58,142 bases of DNA from Boothiomyces macroporosus (lineage: Eukaryota > Chytridiomycota > Chytridiomycetes > Rhizophydiales > Terramycetaceae), in contig JADGKB010000092.1 of the NCBI GenBank assembly GCA_027604185.1, forward strand, positions 1 through 58,142. The letters are read 5' to 3'. Below the pieces are notes generated by a model. The model made no database searches and had not been told where the DNA came from. It saw only the letters and a list, made by a program, of their open reading frames with translations. Positions 11,070-55,625 of the stretch are shown here, piece after piece (position 1 is the first letter of the stretch; every line of letters begins with the position of its first letter). A program made the position numbers and the translations under genes.

Positions 11070-11826
11070 TTATTCATTCTTCTTTTTTCTTCTCTTTGGT
11101 TTACTCTCTTCAAACTCTTCCTTGTGCTTCTTTTCATCTTTACAATATTTATCCTCAATATTGGAAATCAATGCCGCTAACCGAGACTCGTTTCGTTTTT
11201 GAATTTCCATTTTCAATGCCAATTCATTTTCCTTTTCATTCTCCGTTGTTACTTGTTTTTTTTCTTTTTCTAATTTTGCCTTTCGTTTTTTCAACTCTTT
11301 CTGATTGATTTTTGGGAATTGTCTGTAAATAGAGAGTTCGCCTATTTAAATCATAATTACCTTGGTCGATTGCTAGTTGGCAAATGTCTTTGTATCTGCC
11401 CAGATCATCATAAGTGGAGAGAGGAATGTGATCAATCATATCCAGCAAGTTGCCTTTGGTTTTGACATACGCCAAAAACACATCGTTTCTTTCCTGTTCC
11501 GAATATCTGTAAATCTTTTCATACTCCACTAAAATCAAACCAATGACTACCTATGATTAATACTGTTTACCAATATCATTCTCATTAATCTTTTTAAAGT
11601 AAAAATCATATTCCTTTTCATCAATCTCTTTTGTCCGGTCATAAACCTCTCTTCGTTTCGGATCAATCAAGCACGAATAAGCCAAGTTCAATTCTTGAAA
11701 TTTCTCGTTATCCACTTCTTTGTTTTTATCTGGATGATAGAGCAATGCCAGTTTCTTGTATTTTTGTTTAATTTCTAAAGTCGTAGCTGTTTCCGGCAAT
11801 TCCAAGATCTCGTACAGATTTCTCAT
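11070..11826 (-). CDS. DNAJC9-like J-domain histone co-chaperone
   Basis: The exons are 11826-11571, 11528-11361 and 11341-11070 (231 residues). The N-terminus is a J domain (NLYEILELPETAT, then YHPDKNK with the HPD triad). The second exon has EYEKIYRYSEQERNDVFLAYVKTKGNLLDMIDHI, the diagnostic DNAJC9 block, and the third opens with GELSIYRQFPKINQKELKKRKA, followed by a charged helix and a basic nuclear-type C-terminus. DNAJC9 is a histone H3-H4 chaperone that recruits Hsp70. The second intron is 19 nt. The first is 42 nt and equals two abutting intron-like units of 20 and 22 nt; both must be removed to keep frame. Confidence 0.88.
11529..11570 (-). other. Tandem pair of abutting mini-introns (20 + 22 nt)
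   Basis: On the minus strand the unit at 11570-11551 starts GTAAAC and ends TTAATCATAG; it abuts the unit at 11550-11529, which starts GTAGTC and ends TTGATTTTAG. Each has its own donor, branch-like motif and acceptor, and the boundary is AG|GT with no exon between. Removing the first unit only leads to a stop after eleven sense codons; removing both restores the conserved EYEKIYR frame. Confidence 0.65.
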
Positions 11827-15257: not shown

Positions 15258-18200
15258 ATGGAAGAAGAGGACTTTTCAAAATCAGAGCTGCAAGACCGAT
15301 TAGCACACAAGGTATCCATAGTTTAACAAGTCATGGAAAGCCAGAGTGTCTGGTTACGAGGAAATTCAAAAACTGTTGAAACAAGGTGAAACGGTAGACT
15401 CTGGATTCATTTTGAAGGCGATTTCTGATTCTAATCAAATCGCTCTAGAGCAGGTACTTTATTGCTGATCCTAGGTATGCGGATTTAATGGTAGGGTATT
15501 TTGGCCACATTGGAATATTCGAGGATCGCAACTCTCTCGCAAAAACAACTTAATCAGGTGGTTATATGCTTGGCATCGACCAGGCAAACTACAAAGCAAA
15601 GTGCGCAAGAGATTTTAATGTTGAATATCGAAAAATCTGACCCAATTTTGGTATTGGAAATTTTGGTTGAAACATTTAGCCACAAAACACCAAAGAATGT
15701 TGCCAGTGCAGTCAACTGTCTCGCTTTGATTATAAACAACTTTGGTATACCGAGTATTCAAGTGAAGCCGGTGTTGGCAAAGCTTTCGTTCCTGTTTGAT
15801 CACAAAGATAAAAACGTCAGAGCTGAAGCTACTGGATTGACTGTGGAAATATTCAAATGGATTAAAAATGCGATTATGCCATCTTTGCAGGAGTTGAAGC
15901 CTGTGCAATTAAAAGATCTGGAGGCTTTGTTTGAGCAAAACAGAGATCAAGTTGGAGTGAAGCAAAGGTAATTGGAAATAACGTAGATATCTACCAAATG
16001 AAAAGCCAAAGCCTGTTTCTGGATCGGTTAAAGACGCTGAAGTTGAAGAACCTGTGGAACAAGCAGTTCCGGATGCTTTTGACTTTGCAGATCCAGTTGC
16101 ATTCATTGACAAGATTCCAAAGTCTTTTTACGCTGATATTCAAAGTACAAAGTGGAAAGAAAGAAAAGAGGCACTAGAGTTGTTATTGGGTCTATTGTCT
16201 TTTCCGAAATTGGAAGATGGGAGATATCATGAACTAGTAAATATTTTGAGCAAAAAGTTGGCAGATCCAAATGTAGTTGTCCTAATCCTGGCCAGCAATT
16301 GTTTGGAAAAGATGGCTTCTGGATTACGGGGGTCTTTCAAGGAATACAGAAATATTGTGGTTGCACCTACTTTGGATCGTCTAAAGGAGAAAAAGACAAA
16401 TATTATCGAATCTTTAAGAGCATTATTAGATTCAACTTTTCGAAGCGTGAGTAGTTAACTGACTTAGATAAACAAAATTTCAGATATTCTTGAAGATGTA
16501 CTTGCAGGAATGAATCACTCCAACCCTGGTGTAAAGAATGAATCTATTCAGTGGTTGATTAGATGCATGACCAGCAAAACTAAAACAGATTTAGCTAAGC
16601 CAGAACTAAAGCAATTGATTGAAAAGCTGCTTAAATTGATGGACGACAGTTCTGCCGATATTAGAGATTCTGCAGCGCAATGCTTGGGTGTGATGATGAA
16701 AGTGTATGGTGACAAAGCAGTTGTTCCATTCTTGGATAGATTAGACAAAGTAAAGATGCAAAAAGTTACAGACCATTATGAAAAATCAAAAGGAGCAAAC
16801 AGTAAACCAGCAGAAAAGAAAGCCCTTCCTATCCAAAAGGCTCCTTCTCCAAAAGCTATGCCTCCAAGGCAATCTAATCCTTCTACCACATCAATCTCTC
16901 CAGTTTCCAGCCCAAAGCCGGTAAAAACTCTGAAAAAGAAGGCTGTTGGATCTTCCTCGGTTTCAACACTTGGATCAAAGTCAAATTCAGTTAGTTCACT
17001 TCCAGAAGAAGTGAAATATCGTTATTCGGATGATAGCGCAATAGAGTATATTGAAAGCACTTTTCAAGATGAAGCATTCACGCAAATTGGGGATTCGTCA
17101 TGGAAGATCCGTTTGGAAGGAATTCATAAGCTTCTCGAAATATTTAAAGACACAGAATTTGATACAGAAGCATTGATACGATATTTATTGAAAAAGCTCA
17201 CGTGGAAAGAGTCAAACTTTCAAGTAATGATTGGCATGGTCAATATATTCACCCTTACTACAACAAAGGCTAGTTTTGATAAAGGATCCGGCTTATTGCT
17301 TGTCTCAGGATTAGTTGAAAAGCTAGGGGATATGAAAATTAAAAAGTTGGCTGGTAACTGTTTGGATGAAATTTCAGCAAAGATTTCACTAAACGCAGTA
17401 TTAGATGAAGCATACCCTACCATCAAGCAAATGAAAGCACCTAAAATTATTGCAGACACTTTGTTGTGGATTAACCAAAGTATCAAAGAATTTGGCACTG
17501 CAGGTCTCAGCGTTAAAAACCTGGTTGGTTTATGCAAAGAAATGTTGAATAGTCCTTCCGCTCCTGTGAAAACACAAGCGTTAGGTATCCTGGCCACTCT
17601 TCGGCAGTTTGTTGGACCTAGTAAGACTTTGATTAATCATAGCTATTAGAGACTTGTTGGTAGATCTACCTCCAAATGTACTGTCTAATATCGATGCAGA
17701 ATTCCAAAAAGTGGAGAAATTGGCTGCGCCAGTCCCAACTAGAGTTCAGGAGACAAAACCGTTAGTTAAAGAAGTGTTGGTGACAAAGTCTGATTTAAAT
17801 GTATCTCAAGATCTACTCAACAAAATGAATGACAGTAACTGGAAAGAGCGAAAAGAAGGAATGGAAGAATTTGCCAAAGTGCTTTCAATGACTTCTGCTT
17901 TGACTCCAAATTTGTCTTCCGAAGTTGTAAACACTTTAAAAGCGAGATTGAATGACAACAACAAAATAATATCTACTTTTAGCGTCGAAATTTGTACAAC
18001 ATTAATCAAATTAATTGGGAAAGGTTTTGACAAGTACATCAAAATTCTTATTGCCCCAATTTTGGCCCAGTTATCAGATCAGAAACAGCAAATCAGGGAC
18101 AAAGTTATCTTGCTTTTGGATCAAACAAATTCGTTGATTGGAATTGGATCAGTACTGATTAATATTTCGCAATCTCTTCAACAAGACCAGCCGCAAATAA

Positions 18201-28395: not shown

Positions 28396-29334
28396 ATGAA
28401 AAAAACAGATCCGAAAGAATATCTTCAAGACTATGATTCATCGATACCATCAATAGAATATAAACAAGTAGTCCTGAAATTCCGATATTTCCTGTTTGAA
28501 TTATTTGAAAAATTGGTTCAACCCCAAGATGACGATAAAGAAATTATAACACAACAATTTACTCAGTTTCTGGATCAAATTATTGCGGAAATGCCATTTA
28601 CTTATTCATTTTTTGGCTATATTTTTCATTCATATTATATTTGGTGGTCCTGGACTAGAGTACTTTATTGTCAAGAATCAATATTTTGGGGAATGAATTT
28701 CCCTTGCCCTTCAAGAGCAAATACTTTGGTTCATACCAGCGGGTTTATTCAAGCGATATTCTACACTCTCACTATATTCCCTAATCCAAAATTAAGGCAG
28801 TTTATGTTTTACCATGGAATCCTTTTGATGAATGGGATAATATTTATGACTTGGTGGTTGGTGGACTATAATGGAAGCTGGGTATTGACCAAAGGTATTT
28901 ATGGGACATGGAATGCTGTATGGGTTCCTAGTTTATACTATTTATTTTTCAATTGGGTATTCAGATCCGAAATTGGATTGGTTGATTGGATGGTTCACAA
29001 TGATAAAGATGCAGGAGAAGAAAAGGGACTAAACAAGGCATTGCGGACGATATATTTTTGGACTTGGAGGATAAGTATTTTCTTTGAACCACTAATTCCG
29101 CTAATCGTGCACTGGATGTTTATCAAGCAAAAGCATTTCCAAGATATTGATGATGTCTTTACTTGGCCCGGATATTTTTTCGTCACTTGGAGTTTAATTT
29201 ATCTATATTTGATTAATGTTTTGTGGACGTCGTTTCTATCTTTTCAATACAGAATGGTCGTGTGGGATGTGCCATATAAAACTGGTTTGGCAATCATGAT
29301 GTATGAAAATGATTTGTCCATTGGAATAATATAC
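28396..29334 (+). CDS. Polytopic membrane protein, unknown family
   Basis: The single-exon protein of 313 residues has a hydrophilic N-terminus of about 60 residues followed by seven or eight hydrophobic segments rich in Trp, Tyr and Phe (for example WWSWTRVLYCQESIFWG and MTWWLVDYNGSWVL). There is no signal peptide and no catalytic motif I can name. It is probably an integral ER or plasma-membrane protein. The start ATG is 15 bp from that of the divergent small gene. The stop codon TGA is itself the first three bases of a downstream 32-bp tandem repeat. Confidence 0.7.
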
Positions 29335-29478
29335 TGAATGTTCTATTACATGAAACCTCAATCTATTGAATGTTGTATTACATGAAACCTCAATCTATTG
29401 AATGTTCTATTACATGAAACCTCAATCTATTGAATGTTGTATTACATGAAACCTCAATCTATTGAGTGTTCTATTACA
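29335..29478 (+). repeat. 32-bp tandem repeat, 4.5 copies, overlapping a stop codon
   Basis: Copies start at 29335, 29367, 29399 and 29431, with a partial fifth from 29463. They alternate TTCTA/TTGTA at the same internal base, so the real duplication step was probably 64 bp. The first repeat starts with the TGA stop of the upstream gene. Confidence 0.92.
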
Positions 29479-30991: not shown

Positions 30992-33900
30992 CTAGTTTTC
31001 GAACTGAACGAAAATGTCTGAGAATTGCCATTGGGATTGTGTGACTCCGCTGGAAGCAGAGTTATCCCTGTTTGCAGACCAGAATGATAACATACCAACC
31101 CATGGATTGTTGTTGGCAAACAAAAGAATATTTTTGGCGTCTGCAACACTGAATGTTTCTGAGCCAACGTCATTCTTTCCAATCATTGGCACAATACCCA
31201 ACTTTGTATTCAATCCTAGCGACTGGGTTTGTTTGAAGCAGTTTGTTGCTGCTTGGATAACGTAGCCGCCTTCAGCAGTGGCACCGTTTGGAGCAGCTGA
31301 GCTTCCAAAGTTCATGGTCAATAACAATACAAAGTCTACACGAACACCGTAGTTAATTGCAGACTGCAGTACATAGGTAGAAGTAGCAGTATATCCAGAT
31401 GGTGTAACGGGAAGTGTATAACTGATTCTCAAGTTTGGATCAATCACTTGCATAGTTCTCAATACTTGGTTTCTGTAGTCAATCACAGCATTCGAATCAG
31501 TGCTGATGTCAAAGTTGATCCATTCTACTGAATATGCATCAATCACATTCTGGTAGTACATTTGAAGCGTGTTTGGATCAGATACTACATTTGCAATTTC
31601 CTTTCCGGTTGGTCCACCAAAAGTAATAATTGGCTCACCACCAAATTGTCTTATTGTCTGAATAGCATCAAAGAACCAGTTTTCAGAAAGTGGAATGCTT
31701 CCACCCCAAGCTGGGGAGTTGTCAGATCCAGCCGTCAAGTAACCAAGAATATAGTGTCCAGATCCAACTTGGTATTTCATATTGACCAAATCGAATGTTG
31801 GGGAAGCAGAAACATCCACAAATGGCGCAAAGATTTTGCTTGGCCAAATGTAACGACCGAGAAATTCTGTATCTGGCTGAACCGGCTTGGGTGGGGTTGG
31901 AGCAGTTGGAAGTTGGGTAGATTGTGCAGGTGGAGGGGTAACAACTGGCTGCCCAGGTAAAGTTTGTTGTACTGGCGAAGGAACTTGAGCATTTGTTGAA
32001 AATTTGAAAAAGATTTTGGCGAAATCAAAGTCATTCTGAGTGATTCCTGACGAAGCATACAAAGCACCGCTCTTTGAAGTATCTCTATTGATTGACCAAA
32101 ATGCCAACAAGCCAACCCAATTGGTTGTTTGAGCAAAAGTAAGTACTTGCTGAGCATTTGCTAGAGTGAATACTTCACCAGCGACATCATTATTTCCAAT
32201 CATAGGTGTTAACCCAATCTTTGCGTTTTTCATTCCAGCTTGTTGGGCTTGCTTGTAAGTATTTTGGGCTGCTTGGATAGAATATGTACCCATTCCGTTT
32301 GCACCATCTGGAGCAACCCCAGATCCGTAATCCATAGTCATGATGTTGATTACTAGATTAGTTTGCTGTTACCATCATACTGTAGATTATTTGAGACTGC
32401 ATTATTGAGGATATTAATTCCTTGTGACACTAGACCACTTGGTAACACAGGAAGAGTTACAGATATAATTAGGCCAGGGTTTGCTGCTTTCAATGCTGCC
32501 AATGCTTTGTGTCTTCGATCAATAGCAGCAGTGTCATCCCCAGCAGCTCCTTCGATATCGAAATCAATGTAATTCACTTTGTATAGATTCAACACTGATT
32601 GATATTGGCTCTGAAGAGTAGCTACATTAGTTGTGACATGGGCAAGCTCGGTACCTATTGTTAAAAATTGACATACCAGAAGCACCTCCAAAGGAAATAA
32701 TGACATCTCCACCGTTGTTTCTTAGAGTAGTAATCTTGTCAAGGTAGAAGAGTTGTTTGACATCAACAATTCCACCCCAAGCTGGATTTCCAGATGTGCC
32801 AGCTTGAATAAAAGCAAGTGTGAAGAACCGAGTTCCTGTGGCGACGTTAGCCGCGTTAATGTCAAAGGTAGGGTACAAAAGAATGTCGCAGTAAGGAGCA
32901 AAGTTTTTGTTTGCAACTGATAGTTTTCCAGTTTGTGTTGTAGGTGGATTTGTTGATGGGTTGTTGTCAGGTGGAATTACAACTGGAGGATTGGTAACAG
33001 CTGGAGGATTGGTAACAACTGGTGGGACAGCCCTGGTAGTAGCTGGAGCAGGACCGACAGCTGCTTGAACTCCAAGTGGGAAAGTGGCTCCACAGTTGCT
33101 CAATCCAAAGTATTGACATACGACAGAAGAAATTGCGTTAGGGTCAGGATAAGCTGCGTATTGTGGTTCTGGCTGTTTCTGGATGGCCCAGATCATGATA
33201 CCACCACCTTTATGGGCCGAAATAAATCCTAAAAGATATTGTAATTCTGCAATAGTGAGGCAATGTCCCAATTTACAAGGAGTGGTTGCAGTGTCCTTAG
33301 GATATCCTTCCATAGGTGGTTCAACTCCTAAAATAATTGGTCCGGTGAAATACTTTTGATATGCAAGTAACGCCAATGTAGGATCGTAAAAGCCAACGTT
33401 TACATTGTTGTTGTTTGGATTAACAATATAAGTTTTAGAGGCAGGGCTCCAGTAAGTGTTGGAATCGTACGACATGACATTCAAAAAGTCTAATTTGGTT
33501 CCAGAAGCTTTAAGCATTCCAATCGCCATACCACCATTCCACCAACAACCGCACCAACCCGCCGCCATGTGTACATTATCATATGCACCTTCTCCAAATG
33601 CACCATACCCATGAACAGCACTGGACATCAAGTAAGGGCGAGGGAAAGCTGCTCTAAACTGATTTACAATGTTGATGTACTGAGTATCAGCCTTGCAAGT
33701 TTGAGTTAATGTAGTTCCAGGAGTAACATAAGAGCCGCCTCCGTTTGAAGGTTGGCAATTTGCTTGCGAATTCATATTTGAAGGATACCCGTTAGTTTCA
33801 AAGTCTACATCAACACCATCAAGTCCAAAATCGTCAACAAAGTCTCTCATTGCTTGCAAGCTCTGAGCAACTTTGGCAGCACTATATCTAGAGTCTTTAG

Positions 33901-36900
33901 GATCATAAACAGCCCATCGAGTTTGAGAAGGAGTCATTCCACCGGCGTTACATGTTGCGTCGCCATCAACAGAGAAGCACCAACCACCAGCAGAAACCAA
34001 AACTCTGGCACCTCTAGATCGAAGAACTGCAATACCGTTTTTAAGGTTACCAGCGGAACCTGGAACAAAGTCTAAACCAGTTTTCGAAATGTCATAGGAA
34101 CCTTTAGTATACTGCATCATAGGATCAACAAACGAGAGAATAACGACATTGTAGTATGAAGGTACTTGGCAGAGATACAGAGCACCAGGATCTGCCCAAG
34201 TCTCATAATATCCAACATAAAGATTACCGCTTGGTAAAGAACTTGGTGATTGAGGGACGGTTTTCATGGCTGGACAAGACCCAGCAGAAGGAACAACTGT
34301 TGGATTGGTAACGGCAGTTGGTTTCGTAGGAGGATTAACAACTGGTGCGGTCTTTGCTGGGACAGTGGGAATATTTGGATTCACTGGAGCCATAGTGACT
34401 GGGACACTAGTAGGTTGTACTCCAAGAGGGATGGTAGCTCCACAGTTGCTCAATCCAAAGTATTGACATACGACAGAAGAAATTGCATTTGGATCAGGAT
34501 AAGCGGCATACTGTGGTTCTGGCTGTTTCTGGATGGCCCAGATCATGATACCACCACCATTATGAGCCGAAATAAATCCTAAAAGATATTGTAATTCTGC
34601 AATAGTTAGACAATGCCCTAGTTTACAAGGAGTGGTTGCAGTGTCCTTAGGATATCCTTCCATAGGTGGTTCAACTCCTAAAATAATTGGTCCGGTGAAA
34701 TACTTTTGATATGCAAGTAACGCCAATGTAGGATCGTAAAAGCCAACGTTTACATTGTTGTTGTTTGGATTAACAATATAAGTTTTAGAGGCAGGGCTCC
34801 AGTAAGTGTTGGAATCGTACGACATGACATTCAAAAAGTCTAATTTAGTGCCTGATGCTTTAAGCATTCCAATCGCCATACCACCATTCCACCAACAACC
34901 GCACCAACCCGCCGCCATGTGTACATTATCATATGCACCTTCTCCAAATGCACCATACCCATGAACAGCACTGGACATCAAATAAGGGCGAGGGAAAGCT
35001 GCTCTAAACTGATTTACAATGTTGATGTACTGAGTATCAGCCTTGCAAGTTTGAGTTAATGTAGTTCCAGGAGTAACATAAGAGCCGCCTCCGTTTGAAG
35101 GTTGGCAATTTGCTTGCGAATTCATATTTGAAGGATACCCGTTAGTTTCAAAGTCTACATCAACACCATCAAGTCCAAAATCGTCAACAAAGTCTCTCAT
35201 TGCTTGCAAGCTCTGAGCAACTTTGGCAGCACTATATCTAGAGTCTTTAGGATCATAAACAGCCCATCGAGTTTGAGAAGGAGTCATTCCACCGGCGTTA
35301 CATGTTGCGTCGCCATCCACAGAGAAGCACCAACCACCAGCGGATACTAGTACCCTTGCTCCTTGAGATCTGAGAACAGCAATTGCTGATTTTACATTCA
35401 TTGCGGCAGATGGAAGGAAATCCAAACCGGTTTTCGAAATGTCATAGGAACCTTTAGTATACTGCATCATAGGATCAACAAACGAGAGAATAACGACATT
35501 GTAGTATGAAGGTACTTGGCAGAGATACAGAGCACCAGGATCTGCCCAAGTCTCATAATATCCAACATAAAGATTACCGCTTGGTAAAGAACTTGGTGAT
35601 TGAGGGACGGTTTTCATGGCTGGACAAGACCCAGCAGAAGGAACAACTGTTGGATTGGTAACGGCAGTTGGTTTCGTAGGAGGATTAACAACTGGTGCGG
35701 TCTTTGCTGGGACAGTGGGAATATTTGGATTCACTGGAGCCATAGTGACTGGGACACTAGTAGGTTGTACTCCAAGAGGGATGGTAGCTCCACAGTTGCT
35801 CAATCCAAAGTATTGACATACGACAGAAGAAATTGCATTTGGATCAGGATAAGCGGCATACTGTGGTTCTGGCTGTTTCTGGATGGCCCAGATCATGATA
35901 CCACCACCATTATGAGCCGAAATAAATCCTAAAAGATATTGTAATTCTGCAATAGTTAGACAATGCCCTAGTTTACAAGGAGTGGTTGCAGTGTCCTTAG
36001 GATATCCTTCCATAGGTGGTTCAACTCCTAAAATAATTGGTCCGGTGAAATACTTTTGATATGCAAGTAACGCCAATGTAGGATCGTAAAAGCCAACGTT
36101 TACATTGTTGTTGTTTGGATTAACAATATAAGTTTTAGAGGCAGGGCTCCAGTAAGTGTTGGAATCGTACGACATGACATTCAAAAAGTCTAATTTAGTG
36201 CCTGATGCTTTAAGCATTCCAATCGCCATACCACCATTCCACCAACAACCGCACCAACCCGCCGCCATGTGTACATTATCATATGCACCTTCTCCAAATG
36301 CACCATACCCATGAACAGCACTGGACATCAAGTAAGGGCGAGGGAAAGCTGCTCTAAACTGATTTACAATGTTGATGTACTGAGTATCAGCCTTGCAAGT
36401 TTGAGTTAATGTAGTTCCAGGGGGAACCCAGGAACCACCTCCGTTTGATGGAGCACAGTTTGCTTGCGAATTCATATTTGAAGGATACCCGTTAGTTTCA
36501 AAATCTACATCAACACCATCAAGTCCGAAATCATCAACAAAGTCTCTCATTGCTTGCAAACTCTGGGTAACTTTGGCAGCACTATATCTAGAGTCTTTAG
36601 GATCATAAACAGCCCATCGAGTTTGAGAAGGAGTCATTCCACCGGCGTTACATGTTGCGTCGCCATCCACAGAGAAGCACCAACCACCAGCAGAAACCAA
36701 AACTCTGGCACCTCTAGATCGAAGAACTGCAATACCATTTTTAAGGTTACCAGCGGAACCTGGAACAAAGTCTAAACCAGTTTTCGAAATGTCATAGGAA
36801 CCTTTAGTATACTGCATCATAGGATCAACAAACGAGAGAATAACGACATTGTAGTATGAAGGTACTTGACAAAGCAAAGAAGCTGTTGGATCTGCCCATG

Positions 36901-39390
36901 ATTCGTAATAACCGACATACAAACTGCATCCAGGTAGCGCACTTGGAGACTGAGGCAAAGCCAGGATGCTTGGACAGGATCCAGTTGGTGTAACTGATGG
37001 ATTAGTAACCACAGGCTTTGGTGCTGCAGTAGGGATTACTACAACAGGAGCGGCAGTTGTTTTTGCGACAACTGGTGGAGGATTAGCTTGCCCTCCGGAA
37101 GAGCTGGACCCACTAAGCTTGTTGAAAATATTTGAAAAGGCATAGTCAGCTTGAGAAATTTGGGATGACTGGTAGAGTGGTCCATTAACAGAGTTATCTC
37201 TTTGGATAGACCAGAAGGACAAGTATTGAACCCAGCTAGTAGATTGAGCAAAATTGAATACCTCTTGGGCATTTGGCAACGTAAATGTTTCTCCTGCAAC
37301 ATCGTTCACACCAATCATTGGAGTAATTCCTATTTTGATATTTGGGAATCCTAGTGCAACTACTTGTGTGTAAGTATTCTGAGCAGCTTGAATAGCATAC
37401 TGTCCCATGCCAGTAGCACCATTAGGAGCCTCAGATGCGCCATAGTCCATAGCCATAATATTTACTACATCAATAGCAAGCCCGTAATTGATTGCTGACT
37501 GGATAACATAGATTCCAGAAGAGGTCAAACCACTTGGGAAAACAGGTAAGGTCAAAGAAATCATCAATCCAGGATTAGCAGCTTTCAACTTGGCCAATGC
37601 TTGTGAACGTCTGTCAATAGCCGCAGTATTAGACAACCCACTTCCTTCAATATCAAAATCTAACCAGCGAACATTGTATCTATCAATAACACTTTGGTAC
37701 TTTTGCTGCAACTGATTAATATCGTTAGTAACTGTAGCAATTTCGGCGCCGTTGTATCCACCAAACGAAATGCAAATATCACCACCCATGTTTCGTAAAT
37801 ACTGGATATTGATTAAATAGAAGGAGGAAGTGATTGCAGTTTGGCCTCCCCATGAAGGGTTTCCGTTTCCATCGGCAATCAAGAATGCAAGGACGAACCA
37901 TTTGGTTCCAGCATTTTGAGCAAACTTGAATATTTCAGGGGTTGGGAAAGCCATAATATCGACGTATGGGATAAAGAACTTTGATGGAATAGCTGGAGCG
38001 TTTGGTGGCGGACCCGATGGTGGTGGTGTCCCGGTACAAGTTCCATAACTCCATTGACATCCAGCACCACAGAATGCAGCAGATGTACCACAGTATCCGT
38101 ACTGCGAGCAGCAATAGTTTCCACCGCAAGCATAGTTTCCTCCGGTAGCACCGCAACTACTTGGTACCACTCCATTCGCCGGTTGGATAACAGTTGGTTT
38201 ATATTGCGGAATAGGCGCATTGGTAGTAGCCAAGAACCCTGGTTTCTTTTTCTGGTCGCCAAATTGACTAAACAGCTTGGTAAACGCATAGTTGTCTTGC
38301 TTTATCATTGAAGAAGTTCCTAACCCGTTCATAGCACCGTTATCTCTATTCAAACTCCAGAATCCAATATAGCCAATATAGTCGGTTTTAGCGCTGAAAT
38401 CAAGCACCTTTTTAGCATCGTTCAATGTAAATACTTCGGAAGGATAGTCGTTTTGTCCAATCATTGGTGTAATTCCAAGTGTGAAATTGTAGTATATTTT
38501 AGTCACTTGGGCATACACATTAGCAGCTGATTGAATAGCAAAGTCACCCATATTACCATTAACCCCATAATCCATTGTCATCAAATTAATCACGTCAGGC
38601 TTAAAGTACATTTTAGTAGCTTGCAATAAAGCAATAACATTTGGTTCAAAACCAGCAGTATCAACAGGCAGAGTGTATGATATTTTCAATTTTGGGAAAG
38701 ATTGTTTAAGTAAATAGATTGCTTTGGCGCGAATGATTGATTGCGGCAGATCAGAAAGAGCTTGACCTTCAATATCAAAGTCAATCCAGTTCAAAGAGTA
38801 TTTTTCAACGACTCTAGCGTATTTGTACATCAATTCAGTTTCATTTGTGTATAGAGCAGCAATAGGAGTGCCTTCAGCCCCACCAAAAGATACAATAACA
38901 TCACCACCAGCGTTGCGCAAGTTTCTAATATTTTTCATGTAAAGATTCGAGTCTAGTGAAATTCTTCCTCCCCATGCAGGCTGATTGTACGAGTCAGCAG
39001 TAATGAAAGCAAGGTTAAAGTACTTTGCATTCGTCATATTGAATATATAAGCTAAATCAAAGTCAGCCATAGTAACATCGACATAAGGCGCAAAAAATTT
39101 ACTTGAAGTTGGAGAATTTGGTGGTTTTGGGCTAGCTGGAGGCACAGGACCGCCCAATGCAGGTGGCCCATCTTTTAAGATACTGTTGAGATTACAGGAC
39201 CCGTATTCAGGTTGACATCCAACACCACAGTGGTCAGGAGTTACACCACACCTAAATTAAAGGAATATTACCATCCATACTGCGAACAGCAACTGTTTTG
39301 GCATACTTGAGGGTTGCATTGAAACCCATTTTCAGCGTTTGAATAATTGCCTGGTTGAGCTAATGCTAAACCAATAAGCAGCAGATTCAT
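30992..39390 (-). CDS. Giant secreted multimodular chitinase (7 GH18 + 2 CBM18)
   Basis: The exons are 39390-39272, 39251-32677, 32654-32373 and 32352-30992 (introns 20, 22 and 20 nt), giving 2,778 residues. Order: signal peptide; CBM18; GH18 module A with WIDFDIEG; CBM18 (about 404-447); GH18 B with WLDFDIEG; three near-identical GH18 modules C1-C3, each with DGVDVDFE (DxxDxDxE catalytic motif); GH18 D with YIDFDIEG; and a final GH18 E in which the motif is WINFDIST, so the catalytic Glu is lost. Pro/Thr/Val-rich linkers separate the modules. No membrane anchor follows. The A, B, D, E type and the C type are different GH18 subfamilies. It is likely released or wall-bound and degrades or remodels chitin processively on one chain. 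Confidence 0.93.
33070..36950 (-). repeat. Three tandem 1,350-bp in-frame repeats inside the chitinase
   Basis: Equivalent bases recur at exactly 1,350-bp steps (for example 33091, 34441 and 35791), i.e. 450 codons each of GH18 module plus linker. Long stretches are identical. The differences are clustered rather than scattered, which implies recent unequal exchange or gene conversion. Confidence 0.95.
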
Positions 39391-40472: not shown

Positions 40473-41228
40473 ATGCCAGACAGTGTGGATTATTACAGTC
40501 TGTTGGAAGAGTTTGTTCCTACCATTGACAACTTGCCAAACGAACTTGGGCATGTCTTTACCGAGCTCATAAAGTGATTTCCACTAACCATAGGTAATTG
40601 TTATTGACATAGGTACCCAATAGGTTAATATAGGTAACTACTAGGTTAATATAGGTAACTAATAGGTTAATCAGTTCCTCAAATGACTTGCTAGCGATAG
40701 AACAACGAGTAAAGAGCCAAGACAACATTTTCAAAAAGCAACTAAAGACAGGAATAAACGAGGAATGGGGAGACGATCTAAAGATATACCAGAGTATACT
40801 AGGAGAATATGAAAAGAACAACACAATCCAAAAAGAGAGAATTGACCTAGTAGAAAGAATCCGAGATCTAGTATTTGCGACTAACAAGGTGGATAAACAT
40901 TTAAAGAAGCTGTCTACAGAGTTGGACAAGCTGTACGATCAGGATCCTAACCAGATTAAATTAGAGACTCAAACACCAATACCAAAGCGAAGGATTCAAC
41001 CACCAGTAAGGAGTTTACCAATGAAGAAAAAGAAGAGAGAAACAGAGGATGAACAATTGTACTGTACTTGTCATCAAGTTAGTTATGGAGAAATGATTGC
41101 GTGTGATGGAAAGAATTGTATGTATGAATGGTATACCTTGGTTAATTAGGTTTCATTTGGATTGCTTGGGAATGGTTGAACCGCCAACTGGCATCTGGTA
41201 TTGCGATTCTTGTAGAAAGAATAAATAA
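40473..41228 (+). CDS. ING-family PHD-finger chromatin protein
   Basis: The exons are 40473-40573, 40675-41130 and 41150-41228 (211 residues). Exon 1 gives [27 protein letters not shown], the ING N-terminal helix start. Exon 2 continues the helical region and a basic linker. The PHD finger is [43 protein letters not shown], completed by the 19-nt second intron (41131-41149). ING proteins read H3K4me3 within HAT or HDAC complexes. The first intron is 101 nt, five times the local norm, and divides exactly into five abutting mini-intron units. Confidence 0.93.
40574..40674 (+). other. Five-unit intron concatemer in the ING gene
   Basis: The 101-nt intron consists of 40574-40593 (20 nt), 40594-40612 (19), 40613-40633 (21), 40634-40654 (21) and 40655-40674 (20). 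Every unit starts GT (GTGATT, GTAATT, GTACCC, GTAACT, GTAACT), carries a branch-like motif (ACTAAC, ATTGAC, GTTAAT three times) and ends AG; each boundary is AG|GT. Units 3-5 share TAGGTTAAT and are near-identical, which points to tandem duplication. Removal of the whole array joins ELI to [12 protein letters not shown] in phase 2. Confidence 0.8.
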
Positions 41229-45638: not shown

Positions 45639-45810
45639 TTGGAGATCAAATTTGGAAAGTTTTCAGATACAGAACTGGAAAATAAATGCTGTGAGGATTT
45701 TATCAGTGTCTTTGTTAAAAATGTTGCTCAAGTTTATGATATTTGCTTGTTGACAGATCCTACAGGATTCTAATACTAAAGAAAATCAGTTTATTTTTTT
45801 CCCAAAAATA

Positions 45811-47142
45811 ATGAAGCAAGGAGGATTAGAAAGATTCATGACAATGCACGATGACCGTTCAACCAAAATAGCTCATGTATTTCTCATTAAAGGAAACAGC
45901 AGGGACTTGCTGGAAAAGTTGCCGAGGGCTTTTATGAATGTAGTCAACCGTCATCCTAAAATGCGAACGACAAGCATTTCGGGTTCATTTGAATTAAAAG
46001 CACTACCAAAATTGGATTTAACGAAAGCCCAAAAATTAGTGACAGTCGTCAAGGATGATTGGAGAGAACTGATCAGAACAGAGTGTGATGTTGCGTTCAA
46101 CAGACTAGATGAAATTCCATACAAGATCAATATTATAGTAGAAAATGAATCGGAAAGTAGATTAATTTTATGGTCCGATCACTATATGGCTGACGGCCAT
46201 TCCGGTTTAATCATTATGAATGATTTACTTACCAATATCAGAGATGAATGCATAGAAATGCCAGAGTTGCCAATTAAAAGATCAATATTTGATCATGTAG
46301 TGAAAAAGAATTGGTTCGTTTACAATATCAACAAATTGCTCTGCACAATATTGGAGAAACCAGTCTTGGCTGAAATGAAGGGCTACAAGAACAATTTGAA
46401 AATCAGCAGCAAATTACCGTCTGATCCACTAAAAGAATATGGAACAACGTATTCACATTTTGGTGAGGGAAAACCAGAAAATCTGCAAAAATCTATAGCG
46501 AAATGCAGAGAGGAAAAGACTACGTTGAATGCAGCAGCGATGGTGCTGGTATGTGCGACTATAGCAAAGACTGTTGGCAAGCAGGACAAAATCAAGCTAC
46601 AAATGGATATCGATTACAATATGCGCAATAAAGTAAAAGGATTGGATGAAAAAGACGTTGGATTCAATATTACAATTGGCTCATTAGAATCACTTAAAAA
46701 AGGATTAGATTTAAATCAAAATTTCTGGAAAGCAGCAAAGAAATTAAAAAAGGAATCCCTAACTGCAAACACATCGTTTTTAGCAAAGACGATCCAGACA
46801 TTTGTACATTTAAAATTCAACAAGTTGTCGAATATTACAATTCCACATGATCATGGCTGTATCAATGATGTCAATTTGTCCAATATTGGCAGGTATCCAT
46901 TTGAAAGAAAAGTGGGTGATTATTATCTAGACTCTTTCCATGTATTCAATACTATCCCTGGCTTAGGACCCTCGGTTATCCTTTATCTTTGCACGACTGA
47001 CCGTATTGCTTATTCAATGGCTTCAAAAGTGGAAGAATCCCAAGCGAAAATAGTTTTTGATACTTTTGTACTCCTTTTGGAAAGAATACATGAGATTGAA
47101 TCTCACTTTACTATTGCACAAGTGATTCAATTAATAAATTGA
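45811..47142 (+). CDS. AATase/condensation-like acyltransferase, copy 1
   Basis: The single-exon gene encodes 443 residues. The acyl-transfer active site HxxxDG is present in SDHYMADGHSG at about residue 128, and a second-half DVGFNITIGS block follows a central bridge. The pattern fits the CoA-dependent acyltransferase superfamily, closest in style to fungal alcohol acetyltransferases and PapA-type enzymes. The start GGLERFMTMHDDRSTKIAHVFLI is shared with the gene at 48164. No signal peptide. It probably esterifies an alcohol or small metabolite; donor and acceptor are unknown. Confidence 0.8.
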   Translation: MKQGGLERFMTMHDDRSTKIAHVFLIKGNSRDLLEKLPRAFMNVVNRHPKMRTTSISGSFELKALPKLDLTKAQKLVTVVKDDWRELIRTECDVAFNRLDEIPYKINIIVENESESRLILWSDHYMADGHSGLIIMNDLLTNIRDECIEMPELPIKRSIFDHVVKKNWFVYNINKLLCTILEKPVLAEMKGYKNNLKISSKLPSDPLKEYGTTYSHFGEGKPENLQKSIAKCREEKTTLNAAAMVLVCATIAKTVGKQDKIKLQMDIDYNMRNKVKGLDEKDVGFNITIGSLESLKKGLDLNQNFWKAAKKLKKESLTANTSFLAKTIQTFVHLKFNKLSNITIPHDHGCINDVNLSNIGRYPFERKVGDYYLDSFHVFNTIPGLGPSVILYLCTTDRIAYSMASKVEESQAKIVFDTFVLLLERIHEIESHFTIAQVIQLIN

Positions 47143-47674: not shown

Positions 47675-48163
47675 TGGACTGAATAATTTCTGCAAACTTG
47701 GACGCGTTTTTATGCGACAATGTTTGTTTATATGCAATAGCAAGACGAAATAGAATACATCACCATCATGTGCTAGACTATAGAGATGTTCCGAGTGGCA
47801 TTTTATCGAGGTTAATCACCAATAATATTCGGTATATTTTCATTCGGCTCTGTACTGGATTAGTATTTACTTTTGCCGCCAGAGTTTATCTCCACTTGTT
47901 CGCGATTCAATTTCAAGTTTTGCTTTGGCAGAGGAATGTTCAAGTTAATATCATGATAAGGGGGAATCTGAGCCTATTCGGAATGATAGCGTAATTCCCT
48001 TGGTTCGAAATAGAGGCATAATGATACCTGCCTCTTTTTATTACACTTGAAATTAGCTTTGTCGGTACAACTCCGGTAATACTGTTCCGAGAAAAGCAAT
48101 TGGTAATTTCAAGGGTGTCACAGCCCCAGCACACATAAAAAAGCTTTGTACAATTTAAAAAGC
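47675..48163. other. intergenic region upstream of acyltransferase copy 2
   Basis: No gene is supported. A 98-codon plus-strand frame (47698-47994) lacks an ATG start and any domain sign. Confidence 0.5.
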
Positions 48164-49513
48164 ATGAAGGAAAACGAATTCAGATTAGAAGGCCTTGAAA
48201 GATTTGTTACTATCAATGATGACCGCTCGGTGAAAATTGCACATATATCTGTCCTATATGGCAATCCTTATCATCTTGCTCAACTACTGCCAAAGGCATT
48301 CATGAATGTAATTAACAAGCATCCAAAAATGCGTACTATCGCTTATCCTCATTCCACCAAGGTGTACACTCGAGACTGCCTGGACTATGCAGAGGCTGGA
48401 AAGTTGGTTGCGACAGTCGATATGGACGATTGGCAAGACTATGTCTTGCAAGAATGCGAAGCTCCGTTTCAAAGAACTCGGGAAATCCCATTCAAACTAT
48501 CCTTAGTTATTCAGAGTGAAAAGCAGTCCACTTTGATTTTGTTTTCGGATCATTACATGTCTGATGGCCACTCTGGGTTGATTATCTTGAACGATATACT
48601 TGAAAATATTAGGGACGAGTGTATTCCATTATATGAATTGAAGCGAACAAGATCATTCTTTTCGTCAGCATTCAGTAACTTTACTAGCAAGCTGTTGGAC
48701 AACAAACTCGTTGATTACGCAATCTCTGGTCTCGCAATGAAAACTTTTACTAGTTTCAAGTCCTGTCTGCCATTAATTAGCGAAAATGATGTCAATGTGG
48801 ATAAAGTTGTTCCAAAATCGTTTGGATATTTTGAATCAGGATCATTTGAAAATCTTCAGCAAGCGTTAAATAGATGCAGGCAAGAAGAAACCACATTGAA
48901 TGCGGCCGTAATGATCCTTTTGGCAATTGCTGCTGGTAAGATATCAAATCAAAAGGAAGTAATTCAATTGGCTTTTGATATTGATTACAACATGAGAGGC
49001 AAGGTAGAAGGTATTACAAAAGAGGATGTCGGATTCAATGTGGCTATTGGTAGTCTGGAATCGTTTTTAAAAGGGCTGGATGTGAACGAAAAGTTCTGGG
49101 ATGCTGCCAAGCGATTACGAAAAGAATCACTGATTGCAGACAAGAGTCTATCACAAAAACTAAATCAAGTCTATTCTCACCGCAACCTTCACTCTCTCAA
49201 GACTGTACCTACACCAAACGATAGATGCTGCATCAATGACTTGAACCTGTCAAACATTGGACGGTATCCTTTTGAAACTGTAGTAGGAAACTACAAAATC
49301 AAGAATATCTGGGTGTATAATAACATGCCTTACCTTGGACCAGCATTCACATTTTTCCTTACATCTACCGAGAACATCAACTATTCATGTGTCTCAAGGG
49401 TAGAAAATACAAGTGGCAAAAAGTTGTTTGATTATGCAGTCAGTCTGGTTGAAAATATTCATACGCTTGATTCGGAAATAACTGTAAAGCAAGTCTTGGG
49501 GCGACTAGAATAA
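48164..49513 (+). CDS. AATase/condensation-like acyltransferase, copy 2
   Basis: I chose the ATG at 48164 (449 residues, MKENEFRLEGLERF) because the frame before it starts at a non-ATG codon. The architecture equals that of copy 1: SDHYMSDGHSGLIILND carries HxxxDG, followed by FDIDYNMRGKVEG, DVGFNVAIGSLES and INDLNLSNIGRYPFE, all closely matched in copy 1. The pair therefore arose by local duplication and has since diverged widely. Role as for copy 1: a cytosolic acyl-CoA-dependent transferase of unknown substrate. Confidence 0.8.
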   Translation: MKENEFRLEGLERFVTINDDRSVKIAHISVLYGNPYHLAQLLPKAFMNVINKHPKMRTIAYPHSTKVYTRDCLDYAEAGKLVATVDMDDWQDYVLQECEAPFQRTREIPFKLSLVIQSEKQSTLILFSDHYMSDGHSGLIILNDILENIRDECIPLYELKRTRSFFSSAFSNFTSKLLDNKLVDYAISGLAMKTFTSFKSCLPLISENDVNVDKVVPKSFGYFESGSFENLQQALNRCRQEETTLNAAVMILLAIAAGKISNQKEVIQLAFDIDYNMRGKVEGITKEDVGFNVAIGSLESFLKGLDVNEKFWDAAKRLRKESLIADKSLSQKLNQVYSHRNLHSLKTVPTPNDRCCINDLNLSNIGRYPFETVVGNYKIKNIWVYNNMPYLGPAFTFFLTSTENINYSCVSRVENTSGKKLFDYAVSLVENIHTLDSEITVKQVLGRLE

Positions 49514-53539: not shown

Positions 53540-55024
53540 TCAATTCCCGAGTATAGTAGTTATTAGTGTTTGTATTGGCGGTATTGCAATTAAACAACTT
53601 GAAAACACTGCCATAAGAATTAAACTGATTGAACTAAACGGTGCGCTATCAGGATCTAAACTGAGCAAACTAGCAGTCCCAATTACATGCGAGCTACACG
53701 CTAATGAAAGCCCTAACTCTAACCCACTTTTCAATCTAAATAACTTCCAAATCATTGACCCAACTATTCCTGCAAATATACTAGCCGCACCAGCAATTCC
53801 AAGGTTCCCATCAATAACTTTAGTATTTAGAATGGCTATCGGTGTAGTCACGGCTCTAAATACTAATCCTGATGATACAAGGAAGGGTAGGCTGACTGCT
53901 TTACACACTAAACTGGTAATAACCATTGAAAAGAATGAAATTGACAAACACGTGAATAGTATTTGAACTGGATTCTTTACAATTATATCCATCCTGGACA
54001 ATACTGGAAATACAAGACAGATTACAGTTACATTTAGCAAGTAGCCATAAAAATCACCAACTTTTCCTGATGGATTTGTAAATGTAAATGCAGTTCCAGA
54101 ATTCAACAAACCAATTGAATCATAAAAAGCCTTGTTTGTCATTAATCCAATTAGATATATCCATAGCATTTCCAGCAGCGTACCAACAAGGATAGGATTA
54201 ATTGCGAGTGATATATGGATTCCATACATAGTATTGATTTTATACTGAAGCAATCTACTAATGTAAAACATCAGAACTAGACTAAAAAACAAGTTAATTT
54301 GGATTGATATTGATTTGTAGTTCTCGTTTTGTACTGGGATAGATATCAACACTGAAATGAATGAAATGATAAAGATTGTTAGAGATATTATTTCGTAGAT
54401 TGTAAATGGGACTCCAACCGTTGTTTCTTTTCCTTCCTCAATAGCCACCTGAACTTGCGTTTCTTGATTGGAACCGTTTTCAACTAATAAAACCCTTGTA
54501 TCGGTATCTTTTGCCGGCTCTTCCGTATCCATAATACTCTGTGTCTGATCATTGCTTTGTGATTGATACTGCAAATCGACAAGCTCCACGCTTTCCCCTC
54601 TTGGTAATCTTTTACCAAACAAATAGTCCGTAATCCGAAATAAAAGCGCTGCAGTTAATGTATTTACAGGCACTCCAATAATCAAAACCAGCAAAGTCTT
54701 TAAAGTTTCCATTCCAGTCATTACGGAAATTGTCTTGATTATTGGCACTATTTGTGGGATAAAGAACATTGCAAAGTAAGACAGCAAAATATCAGTGCAC
54801 GGCTCCATTATTGTTTTTATCAGTTCAAATTGTTTTGGTTTGTGTATTTTGATGGGGTACAATATTCCCACCAGGATAATTACGTTGAGGATTGAGCTGG
54901 ATAATTTGATGCTTGATATCAGTAGAACATATCTGAATAGTTCATATAGTCCACAGTATATTAGAAATCCCACTGGTAAATGCCATTTCATCCGGCCGAG
55001 GTAAAAATTTAAAATCAAAATCAT
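53540..55024 (-). CDS. LrgA/LrgB-type membrane protein (PLGG1-like)
   Basis: The protein is 494 residues and intronless. Its N-terminal half has four to five membrane helices (LrgA-like), a central acidic cytosolic loop follows, and the C-terminal half is LrgB-like: FRAVTTPIAI, GIAGAASIFAGIVGSMIW, ACSSHVIGTASLL. The LrgA-LrgB fusion layout is that of plant PLGG1, a plastid glycolate/glycerate transporter, and of related fungal proteins of unclear role; bacterial LrgA/LrgB are holin-like. A small organic-acid transporter is the most plausible role. It starts 13 bp after the Fcf2 stop on the same strand. Confidence 0.82.
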   Translation of the reverse strand: MILILNFYLGRMKWHLPVGFLIYCGLYELFRYVLLISSIKLSSSILNVIILVGILYPIKIHKPKQFELIKTIMEPCTDILLSYFAMFFIPQIVPIIKTISVMTGMETLKTLLVLIIGVPVNTLTAALLFRITDYLFGKRLPRGESVELVDLQYQSQSNDQTQSIMDTEEPAKDTDTRVLLVENGSNQETQVQVAIEEGKETTVGVPFTIYEIISLTIFIISFISVLISIPVQNENYKSISIQINLFFSLVLMFYISRLLQYKINTMYGIHISLAINPILVGTLLEMLWIYLIGLMTNKAFYDSIGLLNSGTAFTFTNPSGKVGDFYGYLLNVTVICLVFPVLSRMDIIVKNPVQILFTCLSISFFSMVITSLVCKAVSLPFLVSSGLVFRAVTTPIAILNTKVIDGNLGIAGAASIFAGIVGSMIWKLFRLKSGLELGLSLACSSHVIGTASLLSLDPDSAPFSSISLILMAVFSSCLIAIPPIQTLITTILGN

Positions 55025-55037
55025 GTGAAAATTTAGT

Positions 55038-55625
55038 TTATTTCCTCTTCTTTTTCCATCCTTTTCTGGTTACAAAGTTACGCTTGGCTTCTACTTCCAT
55101 CACTTTGCGCTTCATGTAGTCTCTAGTCTTTGTGTCGCTGAGCAATTCTTCAACAATGGTTTGCTTGCGCTCTTTTCTGGTTAGCCTGTCGCGGTAATCA
55201 GTAGAGTCTCCTACAATAGTTCCCATTTGAAAGAATTTCGGTATTGTTTTGACTGTATCTCTTTTGTAATGTCTCTTTGGGTCTAGCGCGGCTCTGTTTT
55301 TGATTATATGCAAATCCCTTTTCACTTCGTCTGTCAATGGAGTGCTAGTCATATCAAACCATCCTTTTCCAGCAGTTTCCTTCTTTATTTCTTTAGGCTG
55401 CAGCTCTTGCGGAATGTATACTTGCTTGGTTTCTGGGGGTAACTCAATGCTATTCACCAATTTTACTGGCTGGAATTTCTTTGCTGGATCATTAGGAAAC
55501 AGCTTTGTCTTTTCCGCTTGTAGTGTGGGTAAAACAGTTTCCCTTCTTTCATTGAATTTCAATTCCTTTCTTTCCTTCAAATTGGCAATTGATTTTTCCA
55601 ATAACTGTTGCAGCTCGTCTTGCAT
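55038..55625 (-). CDS. Fcf2-like pre-rRNA processing factor
   Basis: I start at the ATG at 55625 (MQDELQQLLEK), giving 195 residues. After an N-terminal coiled coil comes the Fcf2 domain: GKGWFDMTSTPLTDEVKRDLHIIKNRAALDPKRHYKRD, then IPKFFQMGTIVGDSTDYRDRLTRKERKQTIVEELL. It ends in a basic KGWKKKRK tail. Fcf2 is a nucleolar protein needed for early 18S rRNA processing in the small-subunit processome. The LrgB-like gene starts only 13 bp downstream. Confidence 0.93.
   Translation of the reverse strand: MQDELQQLLEKSIANLKERKELKFNERRETVLPTLQAEKTKLFPNDPAKKFQPVKLVNSIELPPETKQVYIPQELQPKEIKKETAGKGWFDMTSTPLTDEVKRDLHIIKNRAALDPKRHYKRDTVKTIPKFFQMGTIVGDSTDYRDRLTRKERKQTIVEELLSDTKTRDYMKRKVMEVEAKRNFVTRKGWKKKRK

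Follow-up and report, generated by a model that had tools for sequence, protein, structure and literature searches.

Classical recursive splicing concerns large introns, which are cut out piecewise from the 5' end (PMC2773006, PMC5126111), and a further report extends recursive splicing over a broader range of intron sizes (PMC10156609). The stwintrons of ascomycetes are single intervening sequences that require consecutive splicing reactions, with an internal intron interrupting a signal of the external one (PMC8469720). Introns may also be gained by tandem duplication of AGGT-bearing sequence or by expansion of repeats (PMC3443670), Cryptococcus being one case (PMC2395259), and introners are intron sequences that have multiplied recently, their copies being spread over many genes (PMC9860276). 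Very short introns of narrow size range are described from ciliates (PMC9505925), those of Paramecium being about 25 bp (PMC5014332) and those of Stentor 15 nt (PMC12862383). In the open-access text consulted no report was found of chytrid introns of about 20 nt or of chains of complete introns, which is not proof that none exists.

The ING gene and its 101-nt intron chain

The window, by which is meant the whole stretch of 58,142 nt of Boothiomyces macroporosus DNA that was analysed, carries a gene for an ING protein on its forward strand. Exon 1 (40473-40573) starts ATGCCAGAC and stops two bases into a codon, and is followed at 40574-40674 by 101 nt that divide without remainder into units of 20, 19, 21, 21 and 20 nt, which are in order GTGATTTCCACTAACCATAG, GTAATTGTTATTGACATAG, GTACCCAATAGGTTAATATAG, GTAACTACTAGGTTAATATAG and GTAACTAATAGGTTAATCAG. 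All four borders between these units read AG/GT, with zero exon bases between them. Unit 1 (40574-40593) has the branch-like motif ACTAAC, unit 2 (40594-40612) has ATTGAC, and units 3 (40613-40633), 4 (40634-40654) and 5 (40655-40674) each have GTTAAT; under the trained intron model the five units score 5.4, 6.6, 5.8, 7.5 and 5.4, with the median of all units being 5.5. Units 3 and 5 are both 86% identical to unit 4, where the 99th percentile of single-intron pairs is 81%, so that units 3-5 are near-copies and hence dependent as evidence, whereas units 1 and 2 are no such copies. TRF reports a 21-mer of 3.0 copies at 40609-40671 and also a period of 10/11 nt.

When units are limited to 15-26 nt only a single segmentation of the 101 nt is possible, and when the limit is widened to 10-45 nt further segmentations arise by way of an inner 11/10-nt AG/GT border in units 3 and 4. 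None of 20,000 dinucleotide shuffles of the 101 nt, with the first four and last three letters kept fixed, decomposed into units at any of four thresholds, and the 258-kb sample described below contains 1,512 GT..AG spans of this exact length, of which the ING chain alone decomposed. Together with the chains described below that have no near-copies, these results rule out chance, or a repeat origin, as a sufficient account.

Exon 2 (40675-41130) and exon 3 with the stop codon (41150-41228) are placed by the spliced translation, and between them lies a single mini-intron of 19 nt, GTATACCTTGGTTAATTAG (41131-41149, score 3.3), and only with this removed is the PHD finger continuous. Excision of this intron and the 101 nt gives an ING protein of 211 aa, in which the N-terminal domain PF12998 covers residues 11-119, with the chain junction at residue 34 inside it, and the PHD finger matches the YNG2, png2 and ING4 chains. 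The closest of 61 protein matches is from Boothiomyces sp. JEL0838 (Rhizophydiales), with 97% identity over 90%, and this public protein (P0001) runs unbroken through the chain junction (FTELINSSND). It ends YEWYTLVN, as read-through of such a 19-nt second intron would give, and the end of the PHD finger is missing; the JEL0838 annotation thus appears to have missed an intron that its protein seems to keep, an instance of how the annotation of such genomes can fail.

All 31 of the 31 combinations in which an ING transcript keeps at least one unit run into a stop after 34 or 38 codons. Such retained-unit transcripts are likely to carry a signal for NMD and so to be open to a quality check, which is the function given to the stops of retained introns in Paramecium in work on ciliates (PMC5014332, PMC12862383, PMC9505925).

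The first-pass annotation of this DNA had described the ING intron as five complete mini-introns, which is borne out by the exact 20/19/21/21/20 split, the AG/GT borders and unit scores like those of single introns. It had also placed zero-length exons at the borders, and these are found at all four, where they would permit stepwise removal. The further proposal that a new donor is created at each junction needs correction: no donor depends on an earlier splicing step, as every unit already owns a donor, a branch-like motif and an acceptor; each unit having its own signals, any order of removal would be possible and a strict 5'-to-3' recursion is not required. The earlier reading is largely right but too narrow, the pattern recurring in other genes.

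With recursive splicing (PMC2773006, PMC5126111) the ING chain has in common acceptors and donors that abut as AG/GT, seen at the four ING borders and at nine of 181 gaps between neighbouring introns, and the possible stepwise removal of segments. The location, however, is not a large intron: every segment has the look of an entire intron, about 20 nt long, that may be removed in any order, and the modelled chains total only 38-179 nt. Stwintrons are likewise fungal, and one intervening sequence that would be removed by consecutive reactions is common to both, but in a stwintron the donor, branch site or acceptor of the outer intron is split by the inner one (PMC8469720), whereas the sole segmentation at 15-26 nt places the units side by side, un-nested and independent, each with its own signals. 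Tandem duplication bordered by AG/GT, where the chains point to it, would recall the AGGT route of intron gain (PMC3443670, PMC2395259); here, in contrast, an entire intron would be copied with zero exon bases between the copies, and an existing intron position grows with no new one being made. The elevated neighbour identity with AGGT borders that such a route would leave is seen in three of 18 chains and is invisible in 15. The predicted introns are, as in ciliates, confined to a narrow and very short size, although the lineage here is fungal and chains of touching introns are not mentioned for ciliates in the accessible parts of PMC5014332, PMC12862383 and PMC9505925. A recent multiplication of intron sequence would be shared with introners, whose copies are spread over many genes (PMC9860276), whereas near-copies in the chains lie side by side.

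Mini-introns and chains across the genome

The genome comprises 15.2 Mb in 216 contigs, the whole of which was covered by pattern searches, and a sample of 258 kb (about 2% of the genome) was made up of the window and 200 kb in twenty 10-kb stretches from ten contigs. Introns throughout are predictions of a gene finder trained on the genome itself. In a first pass without a length prior, in which 15-120 nt were allowed, 98 introns were called and 68 of these measured 19-22 nt, and after training the sample and 11 pattern loci gave 311 units of 18-25 nt, with 309 of them at 18-22 nt, which agrees with the earlier statement that introns are mostly 18-22 nt. The distinct single introns predicted are 20.07 +/- 0.95 nt (standard deviation; n = 295, counted after the removal of sites double-counted in the overlapping loci L040/L042 and L022/L044). 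Of 291 units from a previous round of training, 257 had A as the third base of the donor and 262 had the branch-like A at a distance of 5 or 6 nt from the 3' end.

The 258 kb hold 248 intron sites, of which 243 are single, three double, one triple and one the ING quintuple. Only four of the 243 single sites were called longer than 26 nt, and by eye one of these belongs to the coding sequence of a cyclase-like gene, two conceal introns of 20-22 nt, some weakly signalled, and one fuses two genes; the signals are weak in two of the short introns, both in C7, that were invoked by eye in dismissing long candidates. A search for long introns, in which chains were forbidden (touching phase-0 singles being still allowed) and long introns made cheaper, gave six candidates in the 258 kb, namely the four long singles, a 43-nt chain and a 109-nt mismodel of ING. 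Thus gene finder and inspection by eye gave no convincing non-chain intron above 26 nt in 258 kb. The loss of a spliceosome factor was considered as a sign of a size limit and rejected: the genes for Slu7, Prp18, SF1 and Mago are all found in the genome, so no missing factor amongst these accounts for such a limit.

Within the window the gene finder places two further chains, both double. One, of 21 + 20 nt, lies at 15454-15494 on the forward strand in an XMAP215/TOG gene, with the TOG domain in the downstream frame of the gene, and the other, of 20 + 22 nt, lies at 11529-11570 on the minus strand (minus-strand 46573-46614) in a gene that by eye is J-domain-like. The triple chain of the sample, of 57 nt, is on contig C6. 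Three of the five sample chains thus fall within the window, which is a non-random pick, and outside it there are two chains in 205 sites. Apart from the nine zero gaps amongst the 181 between neighbouring introns, none is 1-56 nt, the shortest of the others being 57 nt. Matches that resemble a unit and score at least 3 number 0.157 per strand-kb outside the predicted introns, and from this decoy density about 0.04 touching decoys are calculated for 248 sites.

Three chain patterns searched genome-wide gave 12 matches against 0 for the control, 20 against 1 (two of the 20 being ING) and 18 against 2, with the reversed pattern as control and several matches falling in one chain; a looser pattern that required no branch motif gave 19 against 9. 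With random single-intron pairs as calibration, the first three patterns suggest 319, 166 and 203 touching pairs genome-wide, set against the roughly 14,600 intron sites to which the sample extrapolates; all of these are rough figures. The pattern with 12 matches marks 11 distinct places, eight of which were modelled by the gene finder and two (L022 and L026) read by eye, with L030 in neither group. The looser pattern marks 10 distinct places, of which C1, C8:114395, C90 and C92 were modelled, C14 and C8:113734 were read by eye, and C5, C68, C89 and C164 are outside both sets. Of the places marked by the patterns with 20 and 18 matches, only those already amongst the loci taken up were modelled. 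Identical chain matches occur in pairs at C20:66653 and C20:111720 and at C49:16730 and C100:18325, perhaps in duplicated genes.

Altogether 18 chains were modelled, 13 from pattern-selected loci and five from the sample, with the chain modelled in L045 differing from the pattern match that selected this locus. Their totals cluster at 38-44, 57-64, 80-82, 101 and 179 nt. Units in chains have a mean score of 5.05 and singles of 5.11, a likeness that is partly built in as the gene finder rewards good units. Modelled chains of four units are found in a MATH-domain gene and in one whose match to TFIIH p62 is sub-threshold; an SPX gene has one chain of four units and another of two, a BRE-domain gene has two chains of three, a PEX-1N gene one of three and a ubiquitin-conjugating-like gene one of two. 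Read by eye only are chains in the KDEL receptor (19 + 19 nt) and a Sel1-like gene (three units), and in a WD40 gene (L040) seven units over 149 nt, three of them weak (-2.4, -5.9 and -4.0). Eight of 10 array proteins have the junction within their Pfam match, one of the eight, the KDEL receptor, only at the edge; the matched stretch misses the junction in the methyltransferase-like protein on C6, and the best stretch of SPX covers the second junction only. On these predictions the ING chain is one of many, with two to nine units.

The longest chain found, of nine units and 179 nt, is in the homologue of MGM101 on contig C1 (L033), where a run of five 20-nt units has neighbours that are 90-100% identical. 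The spliced protein aligns through the junction FGPGGWALVPRG with the solved MGM101 chain (PDB 9yi6, E 1e-54), and also with the protein of Boothiomyces sp. JEL0838. The public MGM101 of Boothiomyces sp. JEL0866 (P0063) has twelve extra residues, VSLFNVSFNVIK, exactly at the chain junction, and these look like unspliced intron sequence, although the insertion is known from the protein alone and the AG/GT division into units cannot be read from it. In Terramyces sp. JEL0728 (P0064) 31 residues are missing around the chain junction. Both oddities are probably errors in the gene models.

Removal and origin of the chains

Stepwise removal of the chains is inferred from the narrow size range of the introns and, judged from the genomic sequence, is likely, being the best-supported mechanism. 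The ING chain is probably excised as five small splicing events across zero-length exons, and not as one lariat of 101 nt. The spliceosome would accept a donor and a branch/acceptor only when they lie about 18-23 nt apart, and a longer intron would survive only if it is built of whole units, because the removal of each unit leaves the flanking AG and GT sites intact; every order of removal would lead to the same mRNA. It seems on balance reasonable to extend this to a spliceosome that is a fixed-length cutter of pieces of about 20 nt, with introns that in this lineage can lengthen only by whole units and a size that is quantised genome-wide. If true, nature would here offer a case where two to nine small splicing reactions clear one intron position and where introns grow in countable whole units, and it would make testable both a hard upper limit on the intron size of a spliceosome and the manner in which introns lengthen under one.

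A single excision of all 101 nt, in which the first donor is paired with the last acceptor and the inner units are leftovers of an AGGT-bearing 21-nt minisatellite, is unlikely. The 21-mer and the 10/11-nt period reported by TRF would be expected of such a repeat, units 3 and 4 do contain another inner AG/GT border, and the public JEL0838 protein, known from the protein alone, joins the same exons; yet units 1 and 2, which lie outside the repeat, still score 5.4 and 6.6, fifteen other chains divide into units with no near-copy neighbours, and an excision of 101 nt would be an exception in 258 kb that gave no convincing non-chain intron above 26 nt. It is more doubtful still that any donor pairs with any downstream acceptor of the chain, giving excisions of 19-101 nt that converge on one mRNA. 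All of the possible ING excisions (19, 20, 21, 39-42, 60-62, 81 and 101 nt) can indeed converge, but the singles elsewhere are only 18-25 nt, which argues against efficient pairings of at least 39 nt. That the chain is an artefact of the gene model, with the region being no intron or the ING gene decayed, is scarcely credible: the models were made without transcripts and the gene finder's own score for ING is a modest 34, but the protein is full-length with ING and PHD domains and its 97% identical public homologue is continuous through the junction.

The duplication of whole units would be one route of intron growth. Amongst 39 neighbour pairs in the 18 distinct modelled chains, eight exceed the 99th percentile of single-intron pairs, and all eight are in three chains, those of ING, MGM101 and the BRE-domain gene (L042), the last having two adjacent 19-nt units that are identical. 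These near-copies support tandem duplication of whole introns in the three chains, as judged from unit identity, and tandem duplication as previously proposed for ING therefore stands for its units 3-5, with neighbours at 86%. It does not stand as a general explanation: near-copy neighbours are absent from 15 of the 18 modelled chains, so that for most chains an origin by duplication is not demonstrated. The 25 pairs in those 15 have a mean identity of 0.643 against 0.623 for random pairs (P about 0.12), a difference at which old duplication and independent insertion are indistinguishable.

Chains of unrelated units might instead have arisen when a different mini-intron was inserted at an existing exon junction, by reverse splicing or template switching and not by duplication, which is a lesser possibility. 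It concerns origin and not removal, and is compatible with unit-by-unit excision. The 15 of 18 chains without near-copy neighbours are what it would produce, and it is suggested in PMC3443670 that sites which already hold an intron may be preferred by reverse splicing. However, 20-nt introns that had drifted neutrally since an old duplication would have the same appearance, and with no exact repeat amongst the 295 distinct single introns nothing in the sequence examined points to dispersed identical copies; nor do dispersed intron families find support on this count. Single-intron pairs at least 90% identical number 22 of 43,365 in about 2% of the genome, a raw figure, uncorrected for the consensus that introns share. 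Just after a three-unit chain in L042 (1503-1570) the exon opens with GTAATAGG, which resembles GTAATAG, the seven bases with which the 19-nt units start, and this is possibly a trace of how the first intron arose.

Other features of the window

A minus-strand open frame of 2209 codons at 32630-39256 has an 8-mer tandem motif at 33526, 34876 and 36226, and the exact 1350-base spacing of the motif suggests long internal tandem repeats. Two adjacent open frames on the forward strand, at 45754-47139 and 48107-49510, have weak matches to alcohol acetyltransferase and are perhaps tandem paralogues. A 32-nt tandem repeat of 4.7 copies with 94% matches lies at 29328-29478, and an open frame on the minus strand at 53543-55069 has an LrgB-like domain (E 1.9e-25).
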